From: Candidatus Gastranaerophilales bacterium
GTDB taxonomy: Bacteria; Cyanobacteriota; Vampirovibrionia; Gastranaerophilales; Gastranaerophilaceae
Assembly: GCA_944324365.1 (NCBI GenBank)
Contig: CALUWA010000003.1
Span: 124,001-188,000 of the forward strand
Reading direction: 5' to 3'
Length of the DNA stretch: 64,000 bases
Below the pieces are notes generated by a model that did no database searches, was not told where the DNA came from, and saw only the letters and a program-made list of their open reading frames with translations. Within the stretch, counting starts at the first letter, position 1. Each line of letters opens with the position of its first letter. This document shows, in pieces, positions 9,376 through 63,970 of this stretch. Both the position numbers and the translations under genes were made by a program.

Positions 9376-9379
9376 GAGG

Positions 9380-13871: not shown

Positions 13872-13883
13872 TACTAAAAAAAC

Positions 13884-26300: not shown

Positions 26301-29300
26301 GGTACCGGAACTTTAAATATTAGCGGTGTTAATGAAAATTATCAGGGTAATATTCTTTTGACTTCCGGAAATATTGTATATACGGCAAAAGATGCGACGG
26401 ATTCTTTCTTTGAAAACTCTGATATAAGTATTTCAAATGGTACTTCTTTAACAATTGATACATCCGACAAAACAGATTTGGCAGCTTCCGATATTTCAGG
26501 TGAAGGAACTTTGATTAAAGCAGGTTCCGAAACTCTTAATGTGAGCGGTAATAATGAAAACTTTAAAGGTGAAATCCGGGTTAACGGCGGTGAATTGGCA
26601 TATAAGGCTGATACAGATTCTGCCAGATTTTTTAACAGCAGCAGTATAACTCTTGCAGGAGATACAGTGCTTTCTGTTGATACAAACGGTATGCAAAACC
26701 AAACCGGCGGAAGAATATTTTCCGAAGATAACACCGCAGTATTTAACAAAAACGGTGCCGGTGATTTTAACTTGGTCGGATATAATGGCGATTTCACTGG
26801 AACTGCAAATATAAATGAGGGTTCATTAAGTTTTGAAAAAACTTATGGAAGTGAATATTTTTCGGGGCAGACAAATATTGCGCAGGGTGCAGTTTTAAAT
26901 TATACAACGGAACTTGTAAATGATGCAATCTCAAATATTGCGGGAACCGGTACCATAAATAAGCTTGGCAGCAATGTTTTAGATATGACAGATTATACTT
27001 TTAGCGGTACTGTGAATATTCAAAACGGAAGATTTAATGCAATAAGTTCAAATGAAAATGCTGATGATTTGGATTTTAACGCTAATGTCGGCAGCGGCAC
27101 ATATTTATCTTATACTGCGGGAGACGGCTCCTCGGTAACTCTTGGTGGAACCGGCAGCAAACTTGCATTTACAACTCAAAACTCTAATGCAACTGCAGAG
27201 ATTTCTGATGCGAATGTAAGACTTGACATAATAGAAAACGTTACAGGCAATAACGTAATAATTAACAACAGTTCTTCAACTACGCTTGCTGTGCAGGATT
27301 ATACCGGCGGAAATTATACGGTTAACAATTCAACTTTCAAATTACTGAACGATCAAATCAGAGATTACACGTTTTCTAGTTTGACTGCAAATAATGATTT
27401 TGCAGAAATTGACATTTCGCTCGCAAACACACCGTCCGCGGATAATTTTACGGTAGAAAACGGTTCGGGTGTTATTAGTATTTCTAATTTTACTCTATAT
27501 GGTGACAGCAAATTACCGGATCCGATTATCCCTGGTGAAACAACTAAAACTGTACAGGTTATACATAACGGAGCGAATAGTTCAATATCTTTGATTGATA
27601 CTACAAACCCTGACGATATTGATACAAGTTTAGGCGCCTGGGCAACAAGTTATTATGAGTACAATATCGATGCCGGCAAATCTGATGCCGCAAATGAATA
27701 TTACGACACTCTTGAATTTTTAATTGCGCAGGAAACCGACCCGAATACATTAAAGAAAATGAACCAATATAAGCTCGGAGCTGATGATGAAGGTGAAAAA
27801 TTGAGAGGTTTTACGGTAGTTGAAAATACCGATAATCCTTACAATATTGCACAAGACCTTGAAACAACTGCAAAGGGTACCTTTAAAGTTCAGGGTGCCG
27901 GTAAAAATGAAAGTATTATCTCAGGACAGCGTGTTGGATATACGGTTAATCCGGACGGTACAGTTCAGTATTCGCAAAATCCTGACGGGACTTATAAACT
28001 ATCGGACAATTACGGTTCATTCTTTGAAGTTACGCAGGCTTCCACAAATCTGCAGGTCAATGACTTAACAATAAAAGATGCCCAAAGAACGGAACAGAAT
28101 ATAAAAGACGGCTCTGTCTTATATATGACACAATCGAGTGCATCATTTAACAATGTTTTGCTTGATAACAATTATGCTGCCGGAAACGGTGGTGCAATTG
28201 CTGTTGCCGGCGGAAACCTGAGTCTTACAAATACGGATTTAATAAATAATGAGGCTGGCGGAAACGGCGGTGCATTATATATAAGTAAGCAAAACGGTGT
28301 AACGCCGATATCATCTTCCAGTATAACCGGTAATACTGCAGGCGGTAATGGCGGTGCGATATATATAGTCGGCGGGGGAATACGTTTTAGCGGCACAAAT
28401 GATATCTCAAGTAACCATGCAGATGGCAGCGGCGGTGCTATATATAATGACTATGGAACATTTGAAATTTCCGGAACTAACACATACTCAAACAATACTT
28501 CTGGTAGTGAAGGCGGTGCTATATATAATAATAACGGTACAATTAATCTTTCCGGAACAAATACTTTTAGTGAAAATGTATCAGACGGAACCGGCGGGGC
28601 AATTTATAACGGAACCGGCACATTAAATATAGCTGACGGAACTTCTTTTGAAAACAATTCTTCGACAAACGGAAACGGCGGAGCTATATACAACAACGGA
28701 ACAGGGACATTAACCAATACAGAATTTATAAGTAACAATGCACAAAACGGTTCTGCCATTTATAACGATACAAACGGCAGTTTAACTCTGACTAATCCGG
28801 TATTTAACGGAAACCTTGGTAATTCATATCTGTACAACAACGGTACAATCACACTGGATGCACAAAATACCTTAAATCTTCAAAACAATACAGCCGCTGG
28901 GATTATCAACAATAACAAGTTGAATTTTAACGGTACAATTAATGTTTATGACACAATTGCTGCGGAAACCGGCAGAGGAACTATTGATGTAAACGGAAAT
29001 ACGTCGCTTTATAATACGGTTACTGACCAAAATATCAATATTGTAAGCGGAAATTTAGCAATAGGTCAAAGCGGTAATACTAATACCGATGCAATTTTAA
29101 ATAATGTCAACTTGGTGATAAATGAAAATACGACCGCAACACTAAATAATAATTTTGTAAACGGCGGAAGTATTACGACAAACGGAATATTCAATATAGT
29201 TAACCCGGATGATATTACAATCTCCTCAAATATGTCGGGTTCCGGCACTGTTAATAAATCTGAAGCCGGGCTTTTGACCCTGAACGGTAAATCAAATGCT

Positions 29301-32300
29301 GGGTTTAACGGAACATTAAATGTAAATTCCGGAACTGTTTTATTTGAGAAAACTCCGGATAATACCTTCTTTAGCAGCAATGCTAAAATTAATGTTGATA
29401 ATGCCGAATTTGATTACAACACAACTGATAGTGCATACGAATTTTCCGGCAGTAACTTTAGCAAAACAACCCTTACTAACGGCGGTACATTATCTATTTC
29501 CGGACAGAGCAGCAATACAAGCAATTTTGTTTTAAACAGCGGCTGGCTTACATCTGCAAATGCAGACAATCAGTTAATATTCTCAAATGCAAATTATGTA
29601 ATCCAAAGTGCTTTCCTTGACGAAGGAAATTCGGGAGATATTGCTTTTAATTCCTCAATAGTTGATTTTGCTGCAGATGATAACCAAACTGCGGTTGGAA
29701 ATTATAATACAGGAAACTTTAACTATACTTTGAACAATTCTACATTAGATGTTTCAAATACTATTGCTGGTGATACTTATAACTTTAACGAGCTCAATTT
29801 TGAAAACGGTTCTCAGTTGGGTCTGGATGTTGATTTGGTCTTAGATACCGATAATAATGTAAGACCATATGGAGATATCATTAATGCAAACAGCGGCTCG
29901 GGAGTTGTTGAAATAACCAAGTTATATATAACCGACGATAACGGCAGATTTATACAGGAGGGCGACCAGCTTTCAAAAGGTATTATTAAGGTATTTGACG
30001 GTACTAATAATCTGAAGGTTGCCGAACAAAATGATGCCAGAATTTTAAGCTGGGCAACAAATGTTTACAGATACGGAATTACTTCTGCCCAGACTGACCG
30101 CGAATCTGACAGTATAAAAATTATTGTTGACGGATATTCAAACTTTGATACTCTTCGGGATATGAATATCTATGATCCGGATAACAATGGTGAAGGCGGT
30201 AATAGAGGTTTTAGTTTTATCAGCGGATTGGAAAGTACACCATATTATATTTACAGGGATTTGGATACCACTTCAAAAGGTACGTTTACTGTTTTGGGAA
30301 GTATTAATGCCGACGGACAAAAAAGTATTTTATCCGGGATTTTGAAACCTCTTGAAATCACTCAGGATGATGCGGGTGAAAGACTTACCGTAAATCCGGA
30401 CGGTTCAATAACATTTGACGGTGTGACTCTTCAGCAGGGCGAGTATACTACATCAACAAGAACAGGCATAGACGGAACAGTTGAAACTGTTTATAATCTT
30501 CCAACGTCGGCTTTCAGCGGAGAGCAGACAAACGGCTCAATGTTTGAAATAATCAACGAAACAGAATTTTCAATGGAAAATGTTCTTGTTCAGGATGCAA
30601 AAAGATACGCATCTGATAATATAAAAGATGGTGCTGTAGTTTATGCAAAGAATGAAAATGCAACTGTCAGTCTTAGCGGAGTGGATTTTAGCAACAACTC
30701 TGTAGAAGGCGGTTATGGCGGTGTAATTGCAAATTATCTGAGCAAAGAGTTTTCAATTAATGGAAGTACAATTTCTTCTAACAGTGCAGCTCTTAACGGA
30801 GGTGCTATTTACAATACTTCTGACGGATTTACGATTATTAATGCCGTATTGGATTCAAACAGTGCAAAAGACGGATACGGCGGTGCGATTTATACAAATA
30901 AAGATATAAGAATTGCTGATTCAAGTTTTGGTACAACCGGGTTAAACACTCATCAAAACGGTATTGCAAATGATATTTATATAGACGGCAGTGCAAATGT
31001 TACATATGAAGCCACAACAGGTACCACAAACTATATAAACAGCGGTCTTGCAGGAACTGGTTCATTTACAAAAACAGGAGCCGGAATATTAAATTTAGCC
31101 GGAAATAACAAGGATTTGACCGGAAATTTCGCGATAAATCAGGGTGAATTGATATTTACGGCTGATAGTGCGGATGATTCTTTTGTGAGTGCGGCTTCTA
31201 CATCTGTAGATGGTGTGTTAACAATGAATATTGCAGATACCTTGTCATCTTCAATTAATAACCTTTCCGGCGGCGGTACCGTTAATAAAAATTCTACCGG
31301 CAGTTTAACGCTTACAGGTGATAATTCCGGTTATAACGGACAATTCAATATTAACGGAGGAACGGCATATTTTACAAAGAATTCCGATACAGATTATATT
31401 TCGGGAACAACTTCCGTAGCACAGGGTGCAGTCCTTGATTATATGGCAAATGCTGATGATACATTAAATAATATCTCCGGTGAAGGACTTTTGATTAAAA
31501 ACGGAGATGCTGTTTTGAATGTAAACGGTCAAAATTCGAACGCATTTGATATAAATATGCAGATTAACAGTGGCAAACTTAACTATACCGCAGCTGAAAA
31601 CGGTAATATAACCATCGGTTCAAATGTTATCCCGTCTGTAAGCTTTGGCAGCCAAAATACAAATGCATCATTACAGTTAAATAACGGAACATATACTCTT
31701 GAAAGCGAACTTGTAAATTCGTTGGGTAATAATATTATATTTGATTCTGCTGAAATCAAACTTACCGCTGATAATTACACAGACGGAAATTATACAATTC
31801 AAAATTCCGTAATTAATCTTATCAATGACGGTTTGGCAGAAACAAAAACGTTCAACAATCTGACTACAACGGATTCAACATTGAAAATAGATGTAAACCT
31901 CACAGAACCCGCAGATACAACAGACAGGCTTGTTGCAAATAACGGCGGCGGGAATATTCAGCTGGCACTTACGGAAATCAATTTGAACGACAACGACCTT
32001 CCGAAATTCGATAACGGTCTTATGGTTCCGGAGAGGGTAATTAATGTTTTAGGCGGAAACCTCACATTTAATAATGAAGATTCTATCAGCGGCTGGGCAA
32101 CGGATGCTTACATATATGATGTTTCAGCAGTCGGACAGGACTTGATTTTGACGGCTATCGCAGCTAATGATGACAATTCTTTGAAAGCCATGAACCAGTT
32201 TAAGCAGAATGAAGGTGGCGGTATCAGAGGTTTTCAGTTTAATGATGAGGACAGAGGAACGTATATTATAAGAGAAGATCTCGGCACAACTTCTCAGGGA

Positions 32301-34838
32301 ACATTTACGGTTAATGGCTTGGCTGACGGTTCAACTGTAATTTCCGGGGAAGATGCGAACGGAGATGCTTCAAAATCCTTCTTTGAGGTTACGCAGGATA
32401 CTGACTTGACAGTTAATAATGTAACTATTGAAAATGCATACGCGGATGACAGAGGCGGTTCTGTCGTAATCGCAGATAATGAAAATGCGAATGTTGTTTT
32501 GAATAATGTCAATATCAATTCAAGTTCTTCTGCCGGTGACGGAGGTGCGATAAATAATACAAATTCAAATAGTTTTACAATATCCGGTTCAAATATGAGC
32601 AATATCACTACTGACGGCAAAGGCGGAGCTATTTATACAAAAGATAGTATGACTATTGTAGACTCCAGCTTTGGTACAGATGGTGTTAATACGCATCAAA
32701 ACGCTGAACAGAACGATATTTACATAGAGGGAACGGATACAACAGTTAATTTTGTGACAAATACTGATTCTGATATTGCAAGTGGTCTTGCCGGAGATGG
32801 TATTTTGAATAAGTCCGGCTCCGAAACTCTTAATCTTTCCGGAAATAACAAAGATTTCACGGGGAATTTGAATGTAGCGGAAGGAACTCTTTCTTTTGAA
32901 CAAAACAGTGCGGATGATACTTATATTTCAGGCAATACAAATATAGAACAAGCCGGAACAGTTAATATCAACGCAAATGAAACAGATATAATTCCGGGAA
33001 CATTCAGCGGTGCCGGTACATTGAATAAAAACGGGGAAAATAACCTGATAATTACGGGCGACAACTCAGGATTTAAGGGACAGACAAATATTAATGAAGG
33101 CGAAATTGTATTTAATGCGGAAACAAGTTCTGATAAGTATTTCAGCGGAAGCACAAATATTACTGAAAATGGTGCATTAACCGTAAATGCCGGACAAAAT
33201 GTTTCAGTTTCAAATATTTCCGGTACAGGTACTATAAATAAAAATGGTTCCGGAAGTATTGTATTCAGCGGAAACAACAGTGGCTTCAATGGTGATTTGA
33301 ATATGAATGCCGGAGAACTTGCGCTTGCTTCTGGTGCTCTTCTTGGTCAAATAAACAGCGCAACTTTTGAGGACGGAACTTCGATTAATCTTCAAAATAC
33401 GTCTGTAATTGATCATGGAAACTGGCATTATACAACAGATCCTAACCCTTCAAGTATTGAGCATTTATCTTTTAACCAGCTTACTTTGAACGGTGATGTT
33501 GGATTTAATATTGATGTTGATTTGAAAGCTCAGGCTGCGGATAGTATTTATGCAAACGAAATTCTTGGTGACGGCAGACTGGTAATCGGCGGAAACAGTT
33601 TAAATGTAGTGAGTGACACGATTATAAAAGACAGTATTATTCAAATAGCTTCAGGTGCATTTACGGATCCTGCTTTCAGCGACAGAATTATATTGGATCC
33701 TTCCGTAACGTCTGTTATGGGCCCTGTTCAAAGGTATGATGTTGCATATTCAAACGGTGCTTTATCTTTCTCAAGGCAGGGAGGTTTACATCCTTCGCTG
33801 GATATGGTTAACCCTGCTGCGCTGGCATCTTCTGTTGCAACCCAGGTCGGTGGTTATTTGACACAATTGCAGACATTGCATGCAGGTTTTTATCATATGG
33901 AAAGATATACTAAATATCCTTATATGTTGAGGCTTACTGCAGAATCTGTAAATAAAAACGCAATCAGTGATACTCCGGTTTATCAAAAATCCACTTTGCC
34001 TGAAACCTCAAGTGCTATGTGGGTACAGCCTTATACTACATTTGAACAGGTTCACTTAAGAGGCGGACTGGATGTTTCAAACGTAGCGTACGGTGCGATT
34101 TACGGCGGAGATTCTGATCTTGTTGATTTAGGCCACGGGTTTAAGGGAGTTATATCGACGTTTGTAGGTTATAACGGTGCACATCAGTCATTCAACGGTG
34201 TGAGTATGAACCAGCAGGGTGGTACGCTTGGTGTTACCGGAACTTTGTATAAGGGCAATTTCTTTACAGGTTTGACTGTTTCAACCGGTGCAAGTGCGGG
34301 AGAAGCTTATACAATGTACGGAACAGATTCGTTTGCAATGATTACGGCTGGTGCTGCTTCAAAAACCGGTTACAACTGGGAAATTAAAGACGGCAGATTA
34401 ATAATTCAACCGTCATTGTTCCTCGGATATACCTTTGTAAATACATTTGATTATACAAATGTTGCCGGAGTGAAAATGGATTCTGATCCTTTAAATGCAA
34501 TTCAGATTGTTCCGGGATTGAAAATTATCGGCAACCTTAAAAACGGATGGCAGCCGTATTTGGGTGTTAATATGGTTTGGAGCGTAATGGATAAGACAAA
34601 TGTTATGGCAAATGATGTCAGATTACCTCAGTTATCTGTTAAGCCTTATGTAGAGTACGGAGTCGGTGTCCAAAAGTCATGGGGTGAAAGATTTACGGCA
34701 TTCTTCCAAACTATGCTGCGAAACGGCGGCAGAACCGGTGTTGCTCTTACGGCAGGTTTCAGATGGTCGATAGGAAAAGATCCGTCAAAGGAAAACGTAA
34801 CAAAACCTGTTACAAAGAAAGTTGTAAAATCTTTGTAG
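23349..34838 (+). CDS. Giant modular autotransporter adhesin (Pmp-like passenger, 3829 aa)
   Basis: A signal peptide (1-30, ending SPSYSA) leads to a passenger of about 3,500 residues. Seventeen or so GGAIY-type repeats and FxxN motifs (SFTGN, SFTNN, EFISN) resemble chlamydial polymorphic membrane proteins. Autotransporter-associated beta-strand repeats (KNGSGDLTLTG type) alternate with them. A large module recurs: LKxMNxY, RGFxx, YNIAQDLExTxxGTFxVxG, SxISG, SFFEVT, then a GGAI block. Its anchors are near residues 746, 1466, 2265 and 2942. The beta-barrel runs from WVQPYTTFEQ (about 3558) to VALTAGFRWSIG. A further basic tail of about 20 residues ends VVKSL, whereas most barrels end in an aromatic residue. 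GGGAAG lies close to the ATG. Surface adhesion is inferred. Confidence 0.93.
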   Translation: MLKKRDVLKLALASAVIVGSIAFSSPSYSAVVNVDNGNDDRQTYDTSIRNGNLYQSGNIINIVNDIVLTDNLPTISDRQDVTIQSSDGNHFTVDGNTTFDRDGNIDNFNYGYIINNSSVNINNLTFDKMGHSIGLAENVSNVYGAALNIQDANSVVNLSNVNITNSSLNAVTTTAFGLARNAYGGAIYNNGSELTISGSNISNSSIVASETEALTSAGNAFGGAIYNIGNGLRIDTTSFTGNTASTDGDGGSALGGAIYSSGDVTLGGGVEFSGNSDGAGANDIYFQSGGLIVNGLKSENANVISSGLASAGTSSVTVTDNGKLILNGDNRRFTGNAVVGENSSLTYGGTISNSILAQTNVTGNNGTVEFDFDDQRYDGLDAGMITTAAGVSGHFVKSGSGTLVLDSGDYSGFSGDVTVNGGTLEFSGTNYFSNASSNTVNTGASLIYTSSTDNTMSNLQGGGNFTKNGSGDLTLTGNDTNKFTGNAVINGGDLIANYENGTFFAPSATVNLNSSGLQYTTLNANNLSGGNFSSINLADGAVFNYTAEAGTTTIGNFYTSGNGNNSLVFNGSDTANFVLNNNFSKNGTGTDTITFNNADIALGNVSSISNNLVLNNSLIDLMDSQNRFNLTKLEINNLVATGDSRFNIDIFVNTETSDRIIVNGGSGILNIRELSFNQDFGIKDNFTVQVIENNNGSTVALAADSEINPQVAGWSTNMYEYEINAARSDGSSVYDSLNFEAQEATPNSLKIMNNYTLAPTRGFSLLEGAPVYNIAQDLEKTEPGTFTVNGISAEESIISGYRLSYVENPDGTIAYYNRDANGDYIVTQDRGSFFELTDQDETTDFTLENITIQYAARTNQDIKDGSVIYSSSDLASITVDSTNIKNNTSSGNGGAFDIQAANSVVIRDSVFDGNSSTGGAGGAIRSFADLYLSNTSFTNNTDSTGKNDIALGVGAGIRYNVDSGIVSELNGGISGGSGGTFEKIGTGTLNISGVNENYQGNILLTSGNIVYTAKDATDSFFENSDISISNGTSLTIDTSDKTDLAASDISGEGTLIKAGSETLNVSGNNENFKGEIRVNGGELAYKADTDSARFFNSSSITLAGDTVLSVDTNGMQNQTGGRIFSEDNTAVFNKNGAGDFNLVGYNGDFTGTANINEGSLSFEKTYGSEYFSGQTNIAQGAVLNYTTELVNDAISNIAGTGTINKLGSNVLDMTDYTFSGTVNIQNGRFNAISSNENADDLDFNANVGSGTYLSYTAGDGSSVTLGGTGSKLAFTTQNSNATAEISDANVRLDIIENVTGNNVIINNSSSTTLAVQDYTGGNYTVNNSTFKLLNDQIRDYTFSSLTANNDFAEIDISLANTPSADNFTVENGSGVISISNFTLYGDSKLPDPIIPGETTKTVQVIHNGANSSISLIDTTNPDDIDTSLGAWATSYYEYNIDAGKSDAANEYYDTLEFLIAQETDPNTLKKMNQYKLGADDEGEKLRGFTVVENTDNPYNIAQDLETTAKGTFKVQGAGKNESIISGQRVGYTVNPDGTVQYSQNPDGTYKLSDNYGSFFEVTQASTNLQVNDLTIKDAQRTEQNIKDGSVLYMTQSSASFNNVLLDNNYAAGNGGAIAVAGGNLSLTNTDLINNEAGGNGGALYISKQNGVTPISSSSITGNTAGGNGGAIYIVGGGIRFSGTNDISSNHADGSGGAIYNDYGTFEISGTNTYSNNTSGSEGGAIYNNNGTINLSGTNTFSENVSDGTGGAIYNGTGTLNIADGTSFENNSSTNGNGGAIYNNGTGTLTNTEFISNNAQNGSAIYNDTNGSLTLTNPVFNGNLGNSYLYNNGTITLDAQNTLNLQNNTAAGIINNNKLNFNGTINVYDTIAAETGRGTIDVNGNTSLYNTVTDQNINIVSGNLAIGQSGNTNTDAILNNVNLVINENTTATLNNNFVNGGSITTNGIFNIVNPDDITISSNMSGSGTVNKSEAGLLTLNGKSNAGFNGTLNVNSGTVLFEKTPDNTFFSSNAKINVDNAEFDYNTTDSAYEFSGSNFSKTTLTNGGTLSISGQSSNTSNFVLNSGWLTSANADNQLIFSNANYVIQSAFLDEGNSGDIAFNSSIVDFAADDNQTAVGNYNTGNFNYTLNNSTLDVSNTIAGDTYNFNELNFENGSQLGLDVDLVLDTDNNVRPYGDIINANSGSGVVEITKLYITDDNGRFIQEGDQLSKGIIKVFDGTNNLKVAEQNDARILSWATNVYRYGITSAQTDRESDSIKIIVDGYSNFDTLRDMNIYDPDNNGEGGNRGFSFISGLESTPYYIYRDLDTTSKGTFTVLGSINADGQKSILSGILKPLEITQDDAGERLTVNPDGSITFDGVTLQQGEYTTSTRTGIDGTVETVYNLPTSAFSGEQTNGSMFEIINETEFSMENVLVQDAKRYASDNIKDGAVVYAKNENATVSLSGVDFSNNSVEGGYGGVIANYLSKEFSINGSTISSNSAALNGGAIYNTSDGFTIINAVLDSNSAKDGYGGAIYTNKDIRIADSSFGTTGLNTHQNGIANDIYIDGSANVTYEATTGTTNYINSGLAGTGSFTKTGAGILNLAGNNKDLTGNFAINQGELIFTADSADDSFVSAASTSVDGVLTMNIADTLSSSINNLSGGGTVNKNSTGSLTLTGDNSGYNGQFNINGGTAYFTKNSDTDYISGTTSVAQGAVLDYMANADDTLNNISGEGLLIKNGDAVLNVNGQNSNAFDINMQINSGKLNYTAAENGNITIGSNVIPSVSFGSQNTNASLQLNNGTYTLESELVNSLGNNIIFDSAEIKLTADNYTDGNYTIQNSVINLINDGLAETKTFNNLTTTDSTLKIDVNLTEPADTTDRLVANNGGGNIQLALTEINLNDNDLPKFDNGLMVPERVINVLGGNLTFNNEDSISGWATDAYIYDVSAVGQDLILTAIAANDDNSLKAMNQFKQNEGGGIRGFQFNDEDRGTYIIREDLGTTSQGTFTVNGLADGSTVISGEDANGDASKSFFEVTQDTDLTVNNVTIENAYADDRGGSVVIADNENANVVLNNVNINSSSSAGDGGAINNTNSNSFTISGSNMSNITTDGKGGAIYTKDSMTIVDSSFGTDGVNTHQNAEQNDIYIEGTDTTVNFVTNTDSDIASGLAGDGILNKSGSETLNLSGNNKDFTGNLNVAEGTLSFEQNSADDTYISGNTNIEQAGTVNINANETDIIPGTFSGAGTLNKNGENNLIITGDNSGFKGQTNINEGEIVFNAETSSDKYFSGSTNITENGALTVNAGQNVSVSNISGTGTINKNGSGSIVFSGNNSGFNGDLNMNAGELALASGALLGQINSATFEDGTSINLQNTSVIDHGNWHYTTDPNPSSIEHLSFNQLTLNGDVGFNIDVDLKAQAADSIYANEILGDGRLVIGGNSLNVVSDTIIKDSIIQIASGAFTDPAFSDRIILDPSVTSVMGPVQRYDVAYSNGALSFSRQGGLHPSLDMVNPAALASSVATQVGGYLTQLQTLHAGFYHMERYTKYPYMLRLTAESVNKNAISDTPVYQKSTLPETSSAMWVQPYTTFEQVHLRGGLDVSNVAYGAIYGGDSDLVDLGHGFKGVISTFVGYNGAHQSFNGVSMNQQGGTLGVTGTLYKGNFFTGLTVSTGASAGEAYTMYGTDSFAMITAGAASKTGYNWEIKDGRLIIQPSLFLGYTFVNTFDYTNVAGVKMDSDPLNAIQIVPGLKIIGNLKNGWQPYLGVNMVWSVMDKTNVMANDVRLPQLSVKPYVEYGVGVQKSWGERFTAFFQTMLRNGGRTGVALTAGFRWSIGKDPSKENVTKPVTKKVVKSL

Positions 34839-46340: not shown

Positions 46341-46712
46341 GGTGCCTTTTTAATGCAAAAGTACCATTTATGTTCATTTCTTTCTCTTTATTTGCGAAGC
46401 AAAGCGGATTGTGAGCGTAGAGTGAAGAGCGTTGCCGTAGGGCAATGCTCTGGAACTCGTAATACGCGAACAACCAAGCAGAGAAAAAAGTGAACCTTTC
46501 ACGACCAAATGAAAGAGTGAAGCCATTTTGCACGTTTCGAGCAGAGCTCTCAACTGCAAAAGAAGGCAATAAAGAGAAAACACGCAAACGTTCCCTGCAT
46601 TTCGCTGACGCTCAATGCCTAAATATTATTTGAGCTTTCAGCTCAAATTCTTTCATGGCTCACTATCGCACTTCGTGCACGTTCGCCTGACTCACCTTAC
46701 GGTGAGTAATAT
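46341..46712 (+). repeat. Dispersed element, copy 4, with internal insertion
   Basis: Flanks match 22675-22896. The pyrimidine tract is at 46372-46392, with TTTCTCTTTATT as its distinctive part, and the matching purine tract AATAAAGAGAAA is at 46568-46579. About 150 extra bases lie between them, containing AGAGAAAAAAGTGAAC. It ends at the same TGCACGTTCGCCTGACTC sequence. The open frames here are shadows; no gene is called. Confidence 0.75.
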
Positions 46713-56229: not shown

Positions 56230-56295
56230 TTTATAAATATTTGTAATTATGTTATAAAAATTATTGTCGGATTAGTAAATCCGACCTACATTACT
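56230..56295 (-). repeat. Cassette-array repeat, terminal partial copy
   Basis: It matches the hairpin-bearing two thirds of the 93-bp unit. It includes an 8-bp perfect stem, GTCGGATT / AATCCGAC with loop AGTA, where the two full copies have GCC at the end. It closes the array downstream of the third minus-strand gene. Confidence 0.85.
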
Positions 56296-56342
56296 CAAAA
56301 TATTACAGTTATAAGAATTTTAAGTGACCCCAACCTACAAGC

Positions 56343-56963
56343 TTATTTTATATAATTTTCTATCACAATTTTAGCTTTATTTAAATTTTTGAAACCTATG
56401 AATCTATGAAATGTTATATTGTCTTTTAACGTTATTATCAGTTCTGACATAAACAACATTTTACACAATTTTATCGATTTTATATTTTCATATTTTATAA
56501 AAAAGGTTTCTTTAAACATACCTCTCAATATTTTATATGGACAAATTAACCTAATACCTTTATTGGTTAATATATATGTTATATTGAATCTAAAAAACAC
56601 TCCATACAATCCAATAACAAAAGCAATTGAATAAATCCACAATGTTGTATATGTAACTTGTTTTATAGAAGTTAGATTATTAAATATATAAAAGGGTAAA
56701 ATGAATGTTCCTAAAAAAGCTCCTGCCAAGTAGGTTACAACTATACTTGATATAATACCACTTTTAATACAATATATGGGCGTTTCATCTGGATATAAAA
56801 ATTTACATCTTGCAATTGCTGATTTGCTAGAATTTATAAAAAATGGCAGGAAAATACTAACAATCAATATTCCAGTTATAAGACCTGAAATATTAATGAA
56901 ACATTCAAATTCCTCTTTTGAAATAAAACTAAAATTAATTTGAAAATCTGAAAGATTTAGCAT
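56343..56963 (-). CDS. Membrane protein with C-terminal PH-like domain (array gene 3)
   Basis: A 206-residue AT-rich gene. Four membrane helices lie near 20-45, 70-98, 103-125 and 128-150. A C-terminal segment, YILTNKGIRLICPYKILRG, leads into alternating strands, as in bacterial PH (YdbS/PH_2-like) domains. It is a diverged paralogue of the next gene upstream. A GTG sits just before the ATG; the ATG with AAGGA at seven bases is chosen. The start and SD lie inside the shared repeat. The function is unknown. Confidence 0.7.
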   Translation of the reverse strand: MLNLSDFQINFSFISKEEFECFINISGLITGILIVSIFLPFFINSSKSAIARCKFLYPDETPIYCIKSGIISSIVVTYLAGAFLGTFILPFYIFNNLTSIKQVTYTTLWIYSIAFVIGLYGVFFRFNITYILTNKGIRLICPYKILRGMFKETFFIKYENIKSIKLCKMLFMSELIITLKDNITFHRFIGFKNLNKAKIVIENYIK

Positions 56964-57053
56964 CACTTCTTCCTTACCCCAGTTTTTCCCATATAAATAT
57001 TTGTAATTATATTATAAAAATTATTGTCGGATTAGTAAATCCGCCCTACATTA
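56961..57053 (-). repeat. 93-bp cassette-array repeat, full copy 1
   Basis: Identical over 93 bases to 57749-57841. On the minus strand it runs from a hairpin (GGCGGATT / AATCCGAC) through an AT-rich part with TATAAT to GGGGTAAGGAAGAAGTGATG. It thus supplies a possible terminator, promoter and ribosome binding site to the following gene. Confidence 0.92.
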
Positions 57054-57097
57054 TAATTTTGCCAATACAGTTTTTTCGTATAATATTTCACTTGTCA

Positions 57098-57751
57098 TTA
57101 AAATTTATCTCCTAAAAGATAAGATATTTTATTGTAACATTCCATATTATTTGGGTAGCAAGTTAATGGAAATACTAAATCATTATTTCCAATTAAAGTT
57201 ATGTGTTTTTTATTTATCTTTATCTCTTTTATTTCTGATAATAATAAATCTATTTTTTTTAGCATATTAAAGCAACAAATACCTATAATGCGTTTATTTG
57301 TTAAAACTATGTTATATGTACCTAAAAAAAGGGCGAATATAAAAGAAAAACTTCCTAATATTAAATAAATAAAAAGAGTTTCTGAAGTTACCATTTTAAT
57401 TTTATGTATATCAAAAAAGAAAAATGGTAATATATATCCTCCCATATAAACTCCTACTAAAAATTCAATAAATATAGTAATTCTAGTAAGTGGTTGATAA
57501 AAATACATAATAACTTCATTTTTATAATAATTTAAGATTTCTTTATTCAATATTTTATAAGAGCTTCTAAAAAATAAAAACGCAAGCGTACTATATAATA
57601 ATCCTACAATCAAACCAAGTATAAGTGTGATGTAATTAAAATCAAGGGAACTAAAATGTTTAACTATATAACTTAATACTGCTAAGGCAGTATAATAGGA
57701 TAGTGCTAATACACAAGCAAGTATAATTAAAATTATTATTAAATATTTCAT
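57098..57751 (-). CDS. Membrane protein with C-terminal PH-like domain (array gene 2)
   Basis: A 217-residue AT-rich gene, paralogous in layout to the gene at 56343. Helices lie near 3-28, 36-60, 88-112 and 122-147, then IVLTNKRIIGICCFNMLKK begins a PH-like beta domain to the end. Such domains occur in YdbS/YdbT-like membrane proteins. It has no signal peptide beyond the first helix. The start lies in the 93-bp repeat. Confidence 0.7.
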   Translation of the reverse strand: MKYLIIILIILACVLALSYYTALAVLSYIVKHFSSLDFNYITLILGLIVGLLYSTLAFLFFRSSYKILNKEILNYYKNEVIMYFYQPLTRITIFIEFLVGVYMGGYILPFFFFDIHKIKMVTSETLFIYLILGSFSFIFALFLGTYNIVLTNKRIIGICCFNMLKKIDLLLSEIKEIKINKKHITLIGNNDLVFPLTCYPNNMECYNKISYLLGDKF

Positions 57752-57841
57752 CACTTCTTCCTTACCCCAGTTTTTCCCATATAAATATTTGTAATTATAT
57801 TATAAAAATTATTGTCGGATTAGTAAATCCGCCCTACATTA
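57749..57841 (-). repeat. 93-bp cassette-array repeat, full copy 2
   Basis: Identical to 56961-57053, including the start codon of the gene behind it. Complete identity in an AT-rich intergenic region points to recent duplication or gene conversion. Confidence 0.92.
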
Positions 57842-57852
57842 CTAAATTCATT

Positions 57853-59040
57853 TTATTTCTCCTTTACTAAAATTATTTTATTAGTTGCACTATTATAAGG
57901 ACAAAGTTTACCTATTGCACAAATTTTGAATCTTTTTAATGGTAAGAGAAATTGTTTTTCTCCTCCAGATATAATTAAATTATTCTTAAATTTTATAATG
58001 TTTGCATAAGAACCAATATCTTGCTCATATATCTTATATACTTTTTCTTCATTTAGATTATAATGATACAAGCCGGATAAAGATTTATTTCTGCTTTTGA
58101 CAATAAATATTATATTTTCATCATTAATATCTAAAATATTGAAATCATAATTAAGAAGAATTGTATCAGAATTTATTATAAAATTTTTTTTGATTTCAGT
58201 GGTATTATTTTTAAGATTGTAAATTTCAATATTATCTTTTAAACGTCCCCCTATTAAAAAAATATATTGTCCTTTTTGAAAAATGGAAAAATCACTTCTA
58301 GCTTCTTTAATCTTTCCTACTATCTCAAATCTTTCACTATCTGGATTATATTTTTCTATGAATAAAGAGTTTTCTTTAGTAGTAGATTCTCCACCAAACA
58401 CATATAAATAATTGTTACTAAAAATCATTTGGTGATTACTTCTTGGTACATTTAAATTCAATTGTTTTAATATTTTATAATTTTTTATATCATATAAATA
58501 TACTTTTGAAGTTATAGCTTGCTCTTTTTTACCTTTATTAAAATATTCTTTTTGATTAATTTTGCCACCAGAAACAAGAACTATATCATTTGATATTTGA
58601 ATCCTTTTGGTTTCATTAATATAATTATCAAGACCAAAAGGATTTTCTTCGATTAGTTTAATTTGTTTTTTTGTATTGTCAAATATTTCAATACTACCAT
58701 TATCAACTATAACAATATTTTTATCAGAATTCATATATATATCTGACATAATATGTTTTTTATTCATTGAAATTAATTTGCATGTTTTATTTTTAAAGTT
58801 ACAAATTTCAGCATTTAGCAAAATGTTATTTGCAGCTCCATCACTACCACCAACAAATAATATTTCATTTGAATTTGGTAACAGAATTGCTGAATGACCG
58901 ATTCTGTTTTCCAACATATGCCCAACAGATTCTATTCTGAAATTTTGGGTTTTATTGTAAGTATACATTATTGTGACAAATATAATGCTTAAAACCATTA
59001 TTGAGCAAAATTTGTATATGAAATTTTTATATTTTTTCAT
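57853..59040 (-). CDS. Membrane-anchored kelch-repeat protein (array gene 1)
   Basis: An N-terminal anchor (about 8-30) precedes kelch-type blades: HSAILLPNSNEILFVGGSDG, NHQMIFSNNYLYVFGGEST, DFSIFQKGQYIFLIGGRL and a final NNLIISGGEKQ. The double Gly and following aromatic pattern is clear, and about five to six blades would form a beta-propeller outside the membrane. The last strand continues past a CAIGKLCPYN segment. The length is 395 residues; AT content is higher than in the flanking core genes. Kelch propellers bind proteins or glycans; the ligand is unknown. The start and SD carry a shorter version of the array repeat (59038-59060). Confidence 0.78.
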   Translation of the reverse strand: MKKYKNFIYKFCSIMVLSIIFVTIMYTYNKTQNFRIESVGHMLENRIGHSAILLPNSNEILFVGGSDGAANNILLNAEICNFKNKTCKLISMNKKHIMSDIYMNSDKNIVIVDNGSIEIFDNTKKQIKLIEENPFGLDNYINETKRIQISNDIVLVSGGKINQKEYFNKGKKEQAITSKVYLYDIKNYKILKQLNLNVPRSNHQMIFSNNYLYVFGGESTTKENSLFIEKYNPDSERFEIVGKIKEARSDFSIFQKGQYIFLIGGRLKDNIEIYNLKNNTTEIKKNFIINSDTILLNYDFNILDINDENIIFIVKSRNKSLSGLYHYNLNEEKVYKIYEQDIGSYANIIKFKNNLIISGGEKQFLLPLKRFKICAIGKLCPYNSATNKIILVKEK

Positions 59041-59190
59041 CACTTCTTCATTAACCCAGTTTTAAGTAAAAGATCATATTGTTTGTTTTTGGTTGGAACT
59101 AATAAGTTCACATTCTAAAACCTAAAATAATAAACAATCCATTCTACTTCTTAACACCATTATCTCAAAGATACTCTAAATACAAAAAAA

Positions 59191-59279
59191 CGGAGAAGGT
59201 GGGATTTGAACCCACGGTACAGATAGCTCCATACAACACCTTAGCAGGGTGCCGCCTTAAGCCACTCGGCCACTTCTCC
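59191..59279 (-). tRNA. tRNA-Ser(GCU)
   Basis: Acceptor arms GGAGAAG and CTTCTCC pair over 7 bp with discriminator G. The D-arm contains GGCCGAGTGGC, the anticodon loop CTGCTAA gives GCU (anticodon at 59243-59245), and a long variable arm and GGTTCAAATCC T-arm identify a class II serine tRNA. It reads AGC/AGU. No CCA is encoded. It stands alone between the cassette array and the efflux genes, so it could have been the insertion point of the array, though no target-site duplication is obvious. Confidence 0.97.
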
Positions 59280-59378
59280 AAGATTTTTGTACTATTTTGA
59301 CATAAAACCTATGCCAGTGTTTCAATTTTAGCATAAAAAGTATTTATTTGTAAAGTTTTTATTTCTAAAAATCTCAAA

Positions 59379-60761
59379 TTATATATTTTCAGCGTATTTC
59401 ATGTAATCTGTACCGCCGACAGCTTTATATATATTTATCGTAGAGATTATGTAATTTATCTTATTGGAAGCCTCGTCTTTATCTGCCAAAATTAGATTTT
59501 CTTCCGCTCTCATAAGATCCAAATCTGATAATGCTCCAATTTGTTTTCTGCGAAGCATTAACTGATATTTATCTTTTTCCAAATCATTGCGTTCATTGCT
59601 CATGGCATAATTCTTTTTACTTTTAATCGCACTGCTGAGAGAATCGTTTACTTCCTGGATAGATGTAAGGATTGTTTTTTCGTACATTTGCTGTGCTTTT
59701 TCATATTCCATTTTTGAATATTTTAAATGTGCAATTTTTGCTCCGCCCGTAAACAAATCTAATGAAGGCATTACTCCGGCCAATGCTTTAAAAGTATGTG
59801 ATCCAAATATATTCGATAAGCTGTATGCGTTAAATCCTGCCTGACCGTATAGTGTAAACTTCGGCAGAAAATCTCTTCTTGCCACTTTTACGTCAATTCC
59901 TATCTTTTGGATGTATTCTTCTGTTTTTAATAGATCCGGGCGATTTTGAATACATTCAGCTGCAATACTTTCAGGAATTTGAGGCATGCTTACTGTGTCG
60001 TAGTTACTTCTTTGTATATCCGCTAAATTTCTGTCACCTACAAGTACAACAAGCTGTCGTCCTATGGTATCACGCTGGTTTGCATATATATCCAATAATT
60101 CCTGGAATTGGGTGTAAAGCTGCTTTTCAACCAGGTATTCCGTAACGGAACAAAGTCCGTTATTATACTTAACTTCTGTCATCTCTGCAATTTTCTTTTG
60201 CAGTTCTACCAGTTTTTCCTGATTTTGAATTAGTTTGTCAAGTTTAATCAGGTTAAAATATTCAGATGCAAGAGCTGATGTCAGTGCAATATATGTCGCA
60301 CGTTCGTCCTGCTTCATTATTTCGACCTGTTTTTTTAAACTCTTTGTAATCAGGTGGTTTTCGCCCCAAATATCAATTTCATATGTCATTGTAAGGGGTA
60401 ATACGAAATTACTTTGTTTGTAATCATTAATTAATACGTCGCCAAATCTTACATCACTTGATTGAAAATCTCTAAAGTAGTTACCCGCAAAACCGATATG
60501 GGGTAATTCGGCTGCAAATGACTCTTTTACAACCTGTTCGGCCTGCTTGGTTTTTAGGGCAGACATTTTTAAATCCTGATTGTTACTGTATGCCTGCTGC
60601 ATATAATTTATAAGGTTGTCATCTTTGTATGTTTTCCACCAATTTAGATTTAAATATGCAAGTTTGTAGCTTTCATCCTCTTTCTTTTGTTTGGCATTAA
60701 CAGGTAAAATTCCGCACAGCAGAATAATTACCAGGGCAAATATAATTTTTTTATTTTTCAT
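59379..60761 (-). CDS. Outer-membrane efflux channel (TolC/NodT-like)
   Basis: A signal peptide (to about 23) precedes two outer-membrane efflux repeats, about 55-245 and 265-450. Long helices and the typical NxDLKMSALKTKQAE and RPDLLKTEEYIQKIG segments are visible. The length of 460 is normal. No Cys follows the signal, so it is not a lipoprotein like NodT/OprM. Divergent marR-emrA-emrB genes across a shared operator make it the outer channel of that pump. Confidence 0.92.
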   Translation of the reverse strand: MKNKKIIFALVIILLCGILPVNAKQKKEDESYKLAYLNLNWWKTYKDDNLINYMQQAYSNNQDLKMSALKTKQAEQVVKESFAAELPHIGFAGNYFRDFQSSDVRFGDVLINDYKQSNFVLPLTMTYEIDIWGENHLITKSLKKQVEIMKQDERATYIALTSALASEYFNLIKLDKLIQNQEKLVELQKKIAEMTEVKYNNGLCSVTEYLVEKQLYTQFQELLDIYANQRDTIGRQLVVLVGDRNLADIQRSNYDTVSMPQIPESIAAECIQNRPDLLKTEEYIQKIGIDVKVARRDFLPKFTLYGQAGFNAYSLSNIFGSHTFKALAGVMPSLDLFTGGAKIAHLKYSKMEYEKAQQMYEKTILTSIQEVNDSLSSAIKSKKNYAMSNERNDLEKDKYQLMLRRKQIGALSDLDLMRAEENLILADKDEASNKINYIISTINIYKAVGGTDYMKYAENI

Positions 60762-60780
60762 GCTTTACTTCCTTTTTTTC

Positions 60781-60804
60781 TTTGTGTTATCATGATAACA
60801 CAAA
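60781..60804. promoter_or_regulatory. 24-bp perfect palindrome, MarR operator
   Basis: TTTGTGTTATCA followed directly by its exact complement, centred 25 bases from the marR ATG and about 30 from the tolC-like ATG. Its size and position between the divergent genes are those of a MarR dimer site controlling both. Confidence 0.8.
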
Positions 60805-60813
60805 AAGAAAGTC

Positions 60814-61266
60814 ATGGAAAAGAAAAATTTATTAGAAAGCAAAATTGGCTTAAAACTCTCTACTATAGGTAAAAAATCAAAAGTTTTTGCTTTGCAGAGG
60901 TTTTCAAAACATAAATACCCTATAACTCCGGCACAATTTTCATTATTGGCGGCACTTGTAGAGCATGACGGAATGTCCCAGACGCAGCTTGCGGCAAGCA
61001 CAATGAAAGATAAGCCTAATATAACAAGGTTAACGAATATACTGGAGGGCATGGGGCTTGTTACAAGAAGTGCCGGCGTAGACAGAAGAAAAATTTATAA
61101 GGTTTTTATTACAGAAAAAGGACGGCAGGTATACAGCGAAATTTTACCGACAATATTAGATATATGGCGGGATACCGTTGAAGGAATTTCAGATGATGAG
61201 CTTGAAGTTACCTTAAAAGTTCTGAGCAAAATAAGATTGAATTTAGACAAATATGTAGACATATAA
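60814..61266 (+). CDS. MarR-family repressor
   Basis: A 150-residue winged-helix regulator. The recognition region reads ITPAQFSLLAALVEHDGMSQTQLAASTMKDKPNITRLTNILEGMGLVTRSAG. It is followed by DRRKIYKVFITEKG, the beta wing, and dimerisation helices at both ends. It probably represses its own operon and the divergent tolC-like gene through the adjacent palindrome, with release by the pump's substrates. Its stop lies 32 bases before the emrA-like start. Confidence 0.93.
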   Translation: MEKKNLLESKIGLKLSTIGKKSKVFALQRFSKHKYPITPAQFSLLAALVEHDGMSQTQLAASTMKDKPNITRLTNILEGMGLVTRSAGVDRRKIYKVFITEKGRQVYSEILPTILDIWRDTVEGISDDELEVTLKVLSKIRLNLDKYVDI

Positions 61267-61298
61267 ATATACAAGACATTATTAAGAGGATGATGAAT

Positions 61299-62417
61299 AT
61301 GGCAGACGATGATAAAACCCCAAAAACACATAAAGAAGATTTTGAAGAACGTGCTAAAGAAAGAATAAAAAAACGTAAAGAACGAAAAAAACAAAATCGC
61401 CATGAATATGAGAAAAAACGTGTAATTGTTCCGACAGTTACGGCGGTATTTCTTGTTTTTATGGGGATTTTAGCGGCGATACATTCAACGTATTTCCAAT
61501 CAACAGATGATGCGTTTGTGGAAGGCAGACTTATTACTGTGGCTCCGCGTGTGTCAGGGCCTGTAGTAAAACTTCTTGTTGATGATAATGATGATGTTAA
61601 AGCCGGTGATTTGCTGGTTGAGATTGATCCGACCGATTACGAAGTAAAGCTTCATCAGGCGGAAGCAAAACTTGCTCAGGCAAAAGCACAGTTGAATGTG
61701 ACTGAAAGCGATATTGAAAAAAGTACCTCTAATGTGAGTGAAGCTGCGGAAGATGTTAATTCAACATCATCAAAGCTTGAATTTGCAAAAAAAGACCACA
61801 AACGTTATACGGATATGTATAAAGCAGGGATTGTTTCCAAGCAGGATTACGACAAATCCCAAAAAGAGTTTGAGGTGTCCCAGGCAAATCACAAATCAGC
61901 AACGGAAAGATCTAATGCCGCAAAGTTCAATTTGGAATCTACAAAGGCGAAAAGCGAATCTGTTCAGGCCGATATAAAGCGGCTTGAAGCGGAAGTTGAG
62001 CAGGCAAAGCTTGATTTGTCATATACGAAAATCTATGCGCCTCAATCCGGAAAAGTTTCTGCAAGAAGTGTAGAACAGGGAAATTATCTTCAAGTCGGAC
62101 AGCCTTTAATGCAGATTGTGCCGAAAGAGGTTTGGGTTGTTGCAAATTTCAAGGAAATTCAGTTAACACATATGAAACCGGGGCAGCCTGTATCCATAAA
62201 AGTTGATACATATCCGAATAAGCATTTTGAAGGTGAAGTCCAGAGTATTCAACGCGCAACTGGTGCAAAATCAAGCTTATTCCCGCCTGAAAATGCTGTT
62301 GGGAGTTACGTAAAAATTGTTCAAAGAGTACCGGTCAAAATTGTATTTAAGGAAGATATTTCCGATTACAATATAGTTCCAGGCATGTCAGTAGTACCAA
62401 AGGTTAAAGTAAAATAA
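61299..62417 (+). CDS. Membrane fusion protein (EmrA/HlyD family)
   Basis: The periplasmic adaptor of an MFS tripartite pump. A charged Lys/Arg/Glu-rich N-terminus (1-38) precedes one membrane helix (about 42-60), then SIDDAFVEGRL-like STDDAFVEGRLITVAPRVSG, an alpha-helical hairpin (about 105-225) and the lipoyl half-motif YTKIYAPQSGKVSARSVEQGNYLQVGQPL. The ATG at 61290 touches AAGAGG; the one at 61299 has proper spacing, giving 372 residues. It is followed by emrB after two bases. Confidence 0.92.
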   Translation: MADDDKTPKTHKEDFEERAKERIKKRKERKKQNRHEYEKKRVIVPTVTAVFLVFMGILAAIHSTYFQSTDDAFVEGRLITVAPRVSGPVVKLLVDDNDDVKAGDLLVEIDPTDYEVKLHQAEAKLAQAKAQLNVTESDIEKSTSNVSEAAEDVNSTSSKLEFAKKDHKRYTDMYKAGIVSKQDYDKSQKEFEVSQANHKSATERSNAAKFNLESTKAKSESVQADIKRLEAEVEQAKLDLSYTKIYAPQSGKVSARSVEQGNYLQVGQPLMQIVPKEVWVVANFKEIQLTHMKPGQPVSIKVDTYPNKHFEGEVQSIQRATGAKSSLFPPENAVGSYVKIVQRVPVKIVFKEDISDYNIVPGMSVVPKVKVK

Positions 62418-62419
62418 TT

Positions 62420-63970
62420 ATGGAAAATTCTACCCCGCAAAAATTTTCAAACCCGTATATTATTGCGATTGCAGTGCTGCTGCCGGCTTTTTTGGCGCTT
62501 GCGGCATCTTCTGCAACAAATGTAAGCCAGGCGCATATTGCCGGGTTTTATGGCGCAACACAGTATGAAACTAATACTGTTATAACCTGTTATATTATAT
62601 CAGGAGGTTTAATGCTTCCGGTAACGGGTTATTTAGTAAGAAGTATCGGGAAAAAGCTTTTGATGTATTGCAGTATTTTTCTGTTTATGCTCGGGTGCTT
62701 GTTGTGTATAATTTCACCGAATTTGCAAGCTTTAATCGGCGCAAGAATTATCCAGGGTATTGGAAGCGGAAGTATTTTGCCTTTATGCCAAGCTGTACTG
62801 CTTGAAGTATTTCCGCCTGAGCAAAGAGGGGTTGCTATGGGCTTGTTCGGGGTTGCGGCGATGTTTTCACCGCTTGCGGGCCCGTTTTTTGGCGGATATT
62901 TAACTGATAATTACTCTTGGCAATGGGTGTTTATCGCAAATATTCCGCTCTGCATGATATCGTTTTTACTTATTAAGATATTTATGCCGAGTGATAAACC
63001 GTCAAAACAAAAATATAACAAAAAATTCGATTTTGTCGGGTATATATCAATTGTCGTTGCAATGGCATGTATGCAGATAGTTCTTGATAAAGGGCAGCAG
63101 TTTAACTGGTTTGATACTCCTTGGATTTGCTGGCTCACCGGGATTTGTATATTTTCATTTGTTCTGTTTTATGTATGGGAGCTTGAATACAAATATCCGG
63201 TAATTGATATAAGAGTTTTTAAGGATAAAAATTTTTTGTTTGGAACATTTACGAGTTCTTTTATAAATGTTGTTATATACTCTACTTTGCTTTTGGTGCC
63301 GATGTTTGTCCAAAGTATGATAGGGTATAGTCCGTCTAAATCCGGACTTACAATGTTTCCGCGTGCGATAATCTGCCTTGTATGTTTGCTGGGTGTAGGT
63401 GAAATTTCAAAATATGTAAGCAGCAAAATTTTAGCAACTATAGGTTTTTTAATTATGGCGGCATCTCTTTTGATGATGACTCAGATGAACCCGACATCTT
63501 CCATAGAGAGCATAATTTTGCCAAACATACTGCTTTGTATAGGGGTTCCGACGGCATTTGTTCCGGTCACGGCACTCTCATTTGCGACATTGCCTGCCAG
63601 TAAAAATGCTGATGCGGCCTCATTGCATGCTTTGTTTAAAAATATTGTTACCGCGGTTGCAACATCTGCTTCCGCAACGTTTATTGCAAGGGTCTCACAA
63701 GTATATCAAAACTATTTTGTGGGGAATTTGTCAGCTCATAATCATATGTATCAGATAAAATTTGCGGCTTTAAAGAGTAAATTTCTAATGCATTATCCGG
63801 AGGTTCTTGCGGCAAGAAAAGCTAACGGAATGTTATACAATCAGCTTTTGTCACAATCAAGGCTCGGTGCGTTTTTTGATGTATTTATTGTTATTGCGAC
63901 AATTTGTATCTTGATAATTCCTGTAATTTGGATATTAAAAACAACAAGAAAAGCTGCTAAAAATAACTAA
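62420..63970 (+). CDS. Drug:H+ antiporter, DHA2 family (EmrB-like)
   Basis: A 14-helix MFS pump of 516 residues. It has the start NPYIIAIAVLLPAFLALAASSATNVSQAHIAG, the motif A segment PVTGYLVRSIGKKLLMY, ARIIQGIGSGSILPLCQAVLLEVFPPEQRGVAMG and GPFFGGYLTDNYSWQWVFIANIP, diagnostic for DHA2/EmrB. The protein is complete at TAA. With the adaptor and TolC-like channel it forms a tripartite exporter for hydrophobic toxicants or bile-type compounds; the substrate is inferred only from the family. Confidence 0.94.
   Translation: MENSTPQKFSNPYIIAIAVLLPAFLALAASSATNVSQAHIAGFYGATQYETNTVITCYIISGGLMLPVTGYLVRSIGKKLLMYCSIFLFMLGCLLCIISPNLQALIGARIIQGIGSGSILPLCQAVLLEVFPPEQRGVAMGLFGVAAMFSPLAGPFFGGYLTDNYSWQWVFIANIPLCMISFLLIKIFMPSDKPSKQKYNKKFDFVGYISIVVAMACMQIVLDKGQQFNWFDTPWICWLTGICIFSFVLFYVWELEYKYPVIDIRVFKDKNFLFGTFTSSFINVVIYSTLLLVPMFVQSMIGYSPSKSGLTMFPRAIICLVCLLGVGEISKYVSSKILATIGFLIMAASLLMMTQMNPTSSIESIILPNILLCIGVPTAFVPVTALSFATLPASKNADAASLHALFKNIVTAVATSASATFIARVSQVYQNYFVGNLSAHNHMYQIKFAALKSKFLMHYPEVLAARKANGMLYNQLLSQSRLGAFFDVFIVIATICILIIPVIWILKTTRKAAKNN

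Follow-up and report, generated by a model that had tools for sequence, protein, structure and literature searches.

Organization of the Array

Gastranaerophilales are non-photosynthetic relatives of cyanobacteria and form an uncultured gut lineage. A 64,000-nt stretch of a Candidatus Gastranaerophilales genome (GCA_944324365.1, contig CALUWA010000003.1, positions 124,001-188,000 of the forward strand; hereafter the window) contains an array of three co-oriented genes, K, P2, and P1, which are separated by 93-bp repeats and lie next to a tRNA-Ser gene. The source genome (G000) is a draft, probably a metagenome assembly, with a completeness of 99.8%, and the relatives compared with it (other G numbers) are represented by one genome per species. 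Along the minus strand, on which all features of the array lie, the order is tRNA-Ser(GCT), operon leader with its end R0, K, repeat 1 (L + R), P2, repeat 2 (L + R), P1, and L3, where L and R denote the two parts of the repeat.

The tRNA-Ser gene (59190-59280; ARAGORN), already named as a neighbor in an earlier note made from the sequence alone, also adjoins K in the congener G008. The array starts 3 bases beyond its 3' end with the leader of K (59041-59186), delineated by identity to G080, a member of another genus, and by an alignment of the leaders of 11 modules. The 5' part and the promoter of this leader are missing, and its truncated 5' end is the point where the identity to G080 ceases. 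R0 (59038-59063; AAAACTGGGTTAATGAAGAAGTGATG), recognized in the same alignment, is the leader end with the ribosome-binding site (RBS) and start.

K (57853-59043) encodes a kelch beta-propeller protein (Pfam Kelch_6, E = 1.6e-16) with one predicted N-terminal transmembrane (TM)/signal segment, sharing 98% and 93% amino acid identity with its orthologs in G080 and G008, respectively. P2 (57098-57754) and P1 (56343-56966) encode membrane proteins with probable pleckstrin homology (PH)-like C-terminal domains; P2 is 83% identical in amino acids to its ortholog in G278 and P1 81% to its ortholog in G339, and P1 and P2 are themselves homologs (35% over 95 aa, E = 9e-10; 49% nucleotide identity across aligned codons). 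The Pfam bPH_3 match is weak (E = 0.14), and the AlphaFold model of P2, of low confidence (pLDDT 60), shows a C-terminal domain of six strands and a helix whose top PDB matches are mostly PH, phosphotyrosine-binding (PTB), FERM, and bPH folds, all with E > 0.01. The earlier note had described the cargo as a kelch propeller protein and two diverged PH-like membrane proteins; the kelch part holds, and the PH-like part is supported, though weakly.

Repeat 1 (57749-57841) and repeat 2 (56961-57053) are identical at 93/93 positions, as had been claimed, with the identity extending no further on either side, and they form the longest exact direct repeat of the window, the runner-up being 45 bp. The partial copy said to end the array, L3, was located at 56232-56293 (62 bp, 2 mismatches, 97%); it is a terminator-like element resembling repetitive extragenic palindromic (REP) sequences, with an intact GTCGG palindrome and no R. 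Likewise, the short start-signal version before K was recovered at 59038-59061 with 2 mismatches in 24 bases, for which shuffled sequences predict 0 matches. The proposed check for the unit elsewhere found the full 93-mer at no further place in this genome, and the repeats are indeed far more similar than the genes they serve (93/93 versus 49% nucleotide identity between P1 and P2). Of the contents ascribed to each repeat, the RBS and start codon stood. The TATAAT box is present within a -35/-10-like pair (TTTACT-17-TATAAT) in both full repeats, and promoter-like matches across the region are not above chance (32 vs. 28.4). The hairpin amounts to a 6-8-bp palindrome, and the 93-mer folds no better than its shuffles (z = 0.03). 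With this value and no Rfam family at the leaders, a structured RNA was rejected.

Partner Genes in Intact RTX Operons

In other Gastranaerophilaceae, relatives of K and P2 lie directly upstream of genes for repeats-in-toxin (RTX) proteins, which have about 2,100-2,200 aa when intact and are secreted by type I systems. The intact operon order is conserved leader, partner, RTX, TolC, HlyB, and HlyD. The K ortholog of G080 directly precedes a 2126-aa RTX gene, an OEP match being also present in this genome, and that of G008 is followed by a 263-aa fragment of the RTX gene found intact in G080. In G278, the P2 ortholog and the beginning of a 2218-aa RTX gene overlap; HemolysinCabind is present, and TolC, HlyB (TIGR01846, 861 bits; cut-off 726), and HlyD (TIGR01843, 309 bits; cut-off 209) follow downstream. 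In G268, the partner that stands before a 2259-aa RTX protein is a kelch protein. P1 is provisionally assigned to this slot, solely through its homology to P2.

Past residue ~150-320, the RTX proteins of G080, G268, and G278 share 61-91% identity; before it they are unrelated. The partner family matches the family of this N-terminal domain (N-domain) at every locus comparable for both. PH-like partners pair with a glycine-rich, partly TM N-domain (G278, G014, G026), K-type partners with a different one (G080, G008, G003), and other kelch partners (Ka and the kelch protein of G085) with a class-3 lipase-like N-domain (G268, G339, G085). A constant RTX body with an N-domain matched to the partner is what characterizes polymorphic effectors that have a cognate partner. 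The N-domain would be the putative toxin, and the analogy to other polymorphic systems makes the partners, K and P2 among them, most likely immunity proteins. For the N-domain cognate to K, the model obtained was of poor quality (pLDDT 55), and its structure matches were meaningless. In G014 (locus L083:1060-2228), tandem PH-like partner genes are identical over the first ~50 residues and divergent over the rest, a sign of local homogenization.

Orphan Status and RTX Remnants

After K, the window reads ATGAATTTAGT, then the repeat, at the point where G080 and G008 continue with ATGAATTTAGTGGATTTTTGC. This comparison identifies 57840-57851 (ATG AAT TTA GTA, then the repeat) as the remnant of K's cognate RTX gene, comprising 4 codons, the first 11 bases of which are kept before the repeat. 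After P2, the window reads TAATGACAAGTGAAATATTATAC..., 15 codons that match the RTX start of G278 (which begins MTSGVMYEKNVSAKIV) and are followed by the repeat. This remnant (57054-57098; MTSEILYEKTVLAKL, then stop) overlaps the P2 stop with its own start (TAATG). No RTX remnant was found after P1. PF00353, the RTX repeat, has no match anywhere in the 99.8% complete genome, nor does the G080 RTX protein at E <= 1e-20. Since the genome is without an RTX protein and holds remnants only, K, P2, and P1 are orphans, a status that is well supported by these comparisons. Their homologs are paired with effectors elsewhere (K in G080 and G008; P2 in G278; the PH family in G026 and G014), and orphaned partners recur in G339, G085, and G220.

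Composition of the Repeats and Origin of the Units

L, of ~62 bp, consists of the palindrome GTAGG(G/T)CGGATTTACTAATCCGAC and an AT-rich tail with TATAATATAATT, and R (26 bp, AAAACTGGGGTAAGGAAGAAGTGATG) carries the RBS and a GTG/ATG start; in repeat 1, the REP-like hairpin of L reads GTAGGGCGGATTTACTAATCCGAC and R provides the RBS and start of P2, and the R of repeat 2 provides those of P1. L without R is scattered between genes in numerous genomes of the family, and in some cases (G033, G049) the AT-rich tail accompanies it; the palindrome was found in 18 distinct contexts among the fetched loci, which makes it REP-like in the sense of a short dispersed intergenic palindrome. R likewise stands without L, as the 3' end of a leader that measures ~150 bp, or ~300 bp in some cases, and precedes different genes, so that modules with different cargo carry the same leader. 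Reading of the alignment of 11 modules revealed a TTGACA-N17-TATNNT-like promoter, a long 5' untranslated region, and an RBS. This leader occurs in 9 of the 383 genomes searched, one occurrence being a chance match within a coding sequence. In a search of 84,980 species with one genome each, the 26-base leader motif (AGAATRRAWTGTTTATTRTTTTAGGT) was confined to seven metagenome-assembled genomes (six labelled Candidatus Gastranaerophilales and one 'uncultured bacterium'). Since L is found alone and R is found alone as a leader end, the 93-bp unit is a chimera in which a dispersed REP-like palindrome is joined to the final 26 bp of a conserved operon leader.

The units between the repeats have separate origins. 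The K unit (57841-59186) is 98.8% identical in nucleotides to that of G080, where the flanks differ; the P2 unit (57054-57774) is 87% identical to G278 and the P1 unit (56330-56986) 88% to G339. Homology ends at or a few bases from L, except at the 3' end of P1, where it stops 36 bases short of L3, and the unit boundaries at 57841, 57774, 57054, and 56986 coincide with the repeats. K is 94% identical in nucleotides to its counterpart in the congener G008, whose flanking genes are only 78% identical; K is thus closer to another genus than to a congener, indicating horizontal transfer. The three genes are not fixed among relatives, a check that the earlier note had suggested: G000 and G008 are the only members of the genus that retain K (G003 has a 43% relative), and close orthologs of P1 and P2 occur only in another genus.

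The R of P1 is identical to the R of P2, though comparison of each with its own ortholog shows differences at 4 of the 26 positions, which argues that the L-R patch was copied between the units after they had met. A derived G in the palindrome is common to L1 and L2 and absent from L3 and from nearly all dispersed copies, and L1 and L2 are therefore copies of one another. The patch was copied recently between P1 and P2, probably by recombination or gene conversion, in agreement with the proposal that the repeats are recent or homogenized.

Related arrangements were found in two further genomes. In G085, which belongs to another genus (locus L151 = G085:C10, reverse 1937-13973), two units of a partner and a truncated N-domain, namely a membrane protein with a truncated lipase domain and a kelch protein with a truncated N-domain, lie upstream of an intact kelch gene and a 2724-aa RTX gene with a Lipase_3-like N-domain; this array looks like a displacement intermediate. 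In G339, two orphan modules both terminate in the same REP-bearing sequence, which in one of them falls within the RTX gene start; the P1 of this genome is likewise orphaned and REP-bounded.

Prophage Vehicle and tRNA-Ser Site

The intact operon of G268 lies within a Mu-like prophage with Portal_Mu, Phage_Mu_F, a Mu-like_Pro protease, capsid E, sheath, and terminase. On this prophage (G268:C4; loci L167:1-16000 and L123), glycosyltransferase, leader, kelch, RTX, TolC, HlyB, and HlyD follow one another intact. The same glycosyltransferase and a phage neck gene precede the operon in G080 and G278, and a K homolog of G003 adjoins sheath and capsid genes. Among the free viral contigs of IMG/VR, neither relatives of K or P2 nor the leader motif were found, and the prophage link thus rests on bacterial contigs.

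Modules or PH-like genes are located downstream of tRNA-Ser in the same orientation at five sites, with the anticodons GCT (G000 and G008), TGA (G339, G278, and G012), and CGA (G339). Loci with such an arrangement are L125:1765-2164, L124 (reverse) 837-2227, L128:660-2498, L081:5910-6541, and the window itself at 59190-59280. This adjacency, at 5 of 15 loci, has a binomial probability of 1e-10, a rough and post hoc figure. An intact operon on G278:C1 has a tRNA-Ser(GGA) ~7 kb upstream. A Mu-like phage would have no need of a tRNA site, and an integrase-bearing element may be involved; no att-like repeat of the tRNA 3' end of at least 12 bases was detected at the opposite end of the array. Among congeners, the region 3' of tRNA-Ser is variable, with G000, G008, G009, and G010/G011 all differing. 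In G008 (locus L077:5196-8376), K and the truncated RTX gene lie beside tRNA-Ser and upstream of a DUF1349 gene, the first ~20 codons of which recur on the opposite side of the insert. The suggestion of a modular site of gene gain and loss was thus borne out insofar as the site is modular, horizontally supplied, and variable, but not as a generic site for arbitrary cargo, for all the cargo belongs to the partner-of-RTX slot.

Beyond the tRNA, TolC/HlyD/MFS genes at 59379-63970 look, on reading, like an EmrAB-type efflux set and not an RTX exporter; the whole set is kept in G008, and TolC and HlyD in G009, which is without the array. Elsewhere in the window, positions 22765-22892 and 46575-46701 form an imperfect ~127-bp direct repeat, 24 kb apart, with exact blocks of 45, 32, and 31 bp, and a 3829-aa open reading frame (23349-34838) resembles, as judged by reading, a repetitive autotransporter adhesin.

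Proposed Origin of the Array and Alternatives

The locus is probably an array of orphan immunity-type genes derived from a phage-borne polymorphic type I secretion system (T1SS)-RTX effector system of Gastranaerophilaceae. Modules would have been acquired horizontally and deposited downstream of tRNA-Ser, with subsequent loss of the RTX bodies and exporter and retention of the partner genes, presumably under selection, as the partners may confer resistance to relatives still firing the effectors. The 93-bp repeats would be the joints, in which the REP-like palindrome with its AT-rich, promoter-like tail (L) was fused to the leader end (R), so that every partner retains its start signal and may have gained a new promoter. 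The perfect identity of the repeats would then result from the copying of one L-R fusion to the second unit by either homologous recombination or gene conversion.

Several points weigh against this interpretation. Lipase_3 is the sole recognizable enzyme signature among the N-domains (in the G085 units and, below cut-off, in G268), and the N-domains of K's and P2's cognate RTX proteins carry none above cut-off. The cognate RTX gene of P1 was not found, P1 being an orphan in G339 too. The toxicity of the N-domains and the protection by the partners are putative, as is the expression of P1 and P2 from L, and the partners could be anchors or FrpD-like chaperones. In a draft assembly, moreover, an exact 93-bp repeat could let the assembler join units of co-existing strains; the unit-level conclusions are independent of unit order.

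The alternative that survives best, although unlikely, holds that the partners anchor their RTX proteins at the surface or aid in their secretion, in the manner of FrpD with FrpC in Neisseria, and that the array is functionless debris of three decayed RTX operons. FrpD is encoded in one operon with FrpC and binds the FrpC N-terminal domain with a dissociation constant of ~0.2 nM (PMC5233953); the gene order is the same and the matching of partner and N-domain is alike here, and decay by deletion is plain. Mere debris, however, is hard to reconcile with three partners that keep intact reading frames and start signals when the RTX genes are gone, with the 81-83% amino acid identity of P1 and P2 to distant orthologs, and with the recurrence of orphans in three other genomes, and the polytopic P1 and P2 are unlike lipoprotein anchors. 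None of the partners has the sequence or fold of FrpD, K being a kelch protein and P1 and P2 membrane proteins with PH-like domains. Furthermore, Stenotrophomonas has an FrpD-like protein that does function in immunity, and the antibacterial effector Smlt3024 there resembles RTX N-terminal domains (Smlt3024/3025, PMC6759196). The present system shares with FrpC/FrpD and Smlt3024 a partner gene beside an RTX protein whose N-terminal domain the partner binds or matches, and differs in that its partners are kelch or PH-like, its N-domains are swapped on a constant RTX body, and it is phage-borne.

Far less probable is an integron-like cassette array, or one like the recombinase-associated acquired interbacterial defence (rAID) arrays of gut Bacteroidales (PMC12247911), in which the 93-bp unit would be a site-specific recombination site and the units would move as circles. 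The layout R-K-L/R-P2-L/R-P1-L fits serial insertion at one site, and rAID arrays, too, belong to gut bacteria and consist of short orphan genes of the immunity type that share one orientation and have conserved sequences between them. Nevertheless, all matches to the integron integrase model TIGR02249 in the genome fall below its cut-off and lie on contigs C4, C5, and C19, the array contig C3 having none; reading of the 93-mer revealed no attC core pair (GTTRRRY/RYYYAAC), and L is a dispersed palindrome that stands alone in other genomes, whereas R is an ordinary leader end. An integron was accordingly rejected, and no enzyme is known to recognize the 93-bp unit as a recombination site. The array further differs from rAID in having no recombinase-model match on its contig, only three genes, and a repeat made of a REP and a leader end, and in belonging to another phylum and another toxin delivery system. 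The homology of P1 and P2 behind identical repeats might point to a tandem duplication that copied a single gene together with its upstream region, the genes diverging later. This reading is scarcely credible and was rejected, because P1 and P2 each have their own 81-83% ortholog and share only ~35% identity, because repeats without differences imply that gene and repeat copies are not of one age, and because K is unrelated; for the 93-bp patch alone, such a duplication may apply. Phage-defence genes were rejected as well, with no PADLOC match.

Relation to Known Systems and Biological Meaning

The closest parallels lie among arrays of orphan immunity genes. Those of the Vibrio cholerae type VI secretion system (T6SS) arise by sequential effector displacement (Kirchberger et al. 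2017, PMC5361080). Both cases show co-oriented orphans related to effector-paired genes elsewhere, lost effector bodies, and horizontal acquisition, and short homologous anchors are invoked for the joining in both. By contrast, the present system concerns type I secretion and RTX proteins, no resident effector of the kind is left in the genome, and the arrangement is a mirror image, with the partner upstream and the variable domain N-terminal; the remnants are therefore effector 5' ends. The glycine-zipper bacteriocin Cdz of Caulobacter, consisting of two small (~85 aa) aggregating proteins (PMC5380434), resembles the present system in its type I-exported antibacterial proteins with a membrane immunity protein and differs from it in the size of these proteins, set against a giant RTX protein here; the part of that report consulted describes no comparable domain exchange. 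As for REPs and REP doublets forming hairpins (REPINs), L likewise holds a GTAGG-hairpin palindrome dispersed in intergenic regions of the family, but here the palindrome has been joined to the end of a leader and has multiplied at a single locus.

In the open-access literature searched, neither kelch immunity proteins nor prophage-borne RTX/T1SS immunity were found described, and no clear account of such an RTX system in Gastranaerophilales was encountered. A bolder extension, which is doubtful, would have phages of gut Gastranaerophilales spread this weapon as a modular system, with a constant leader, an exchangeable cassette of partner and N-terminal toxin, and a constant RTX body and T1SS. 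The L-R unit would serve as an actively used homology patch through which cells gather orphan immunity genes downstream of tRNA-Ser, a counterpart of rAID arrays and integrons that needs no recombinase, and kelch and PH-like proteins would be new families of immunity proteins.

The findings suggest a polymorphic T1SS-RTX weapon that is probably antibacterial, is as yet undescribed, and travels on Mu-like prophages of an uncultured gut lineage. Its two partner types, kelch propellers and PH-like membrane proteins, were not found as toxin immunity proteins in the literature searched, and its pairs of partner and N-domain can be selected by sequence. The array would represent a mirror image of T6SS effector displacement, and its proposed origin explains how near-identical intergenic repeats may come to surround unrelated genes without an integrase.

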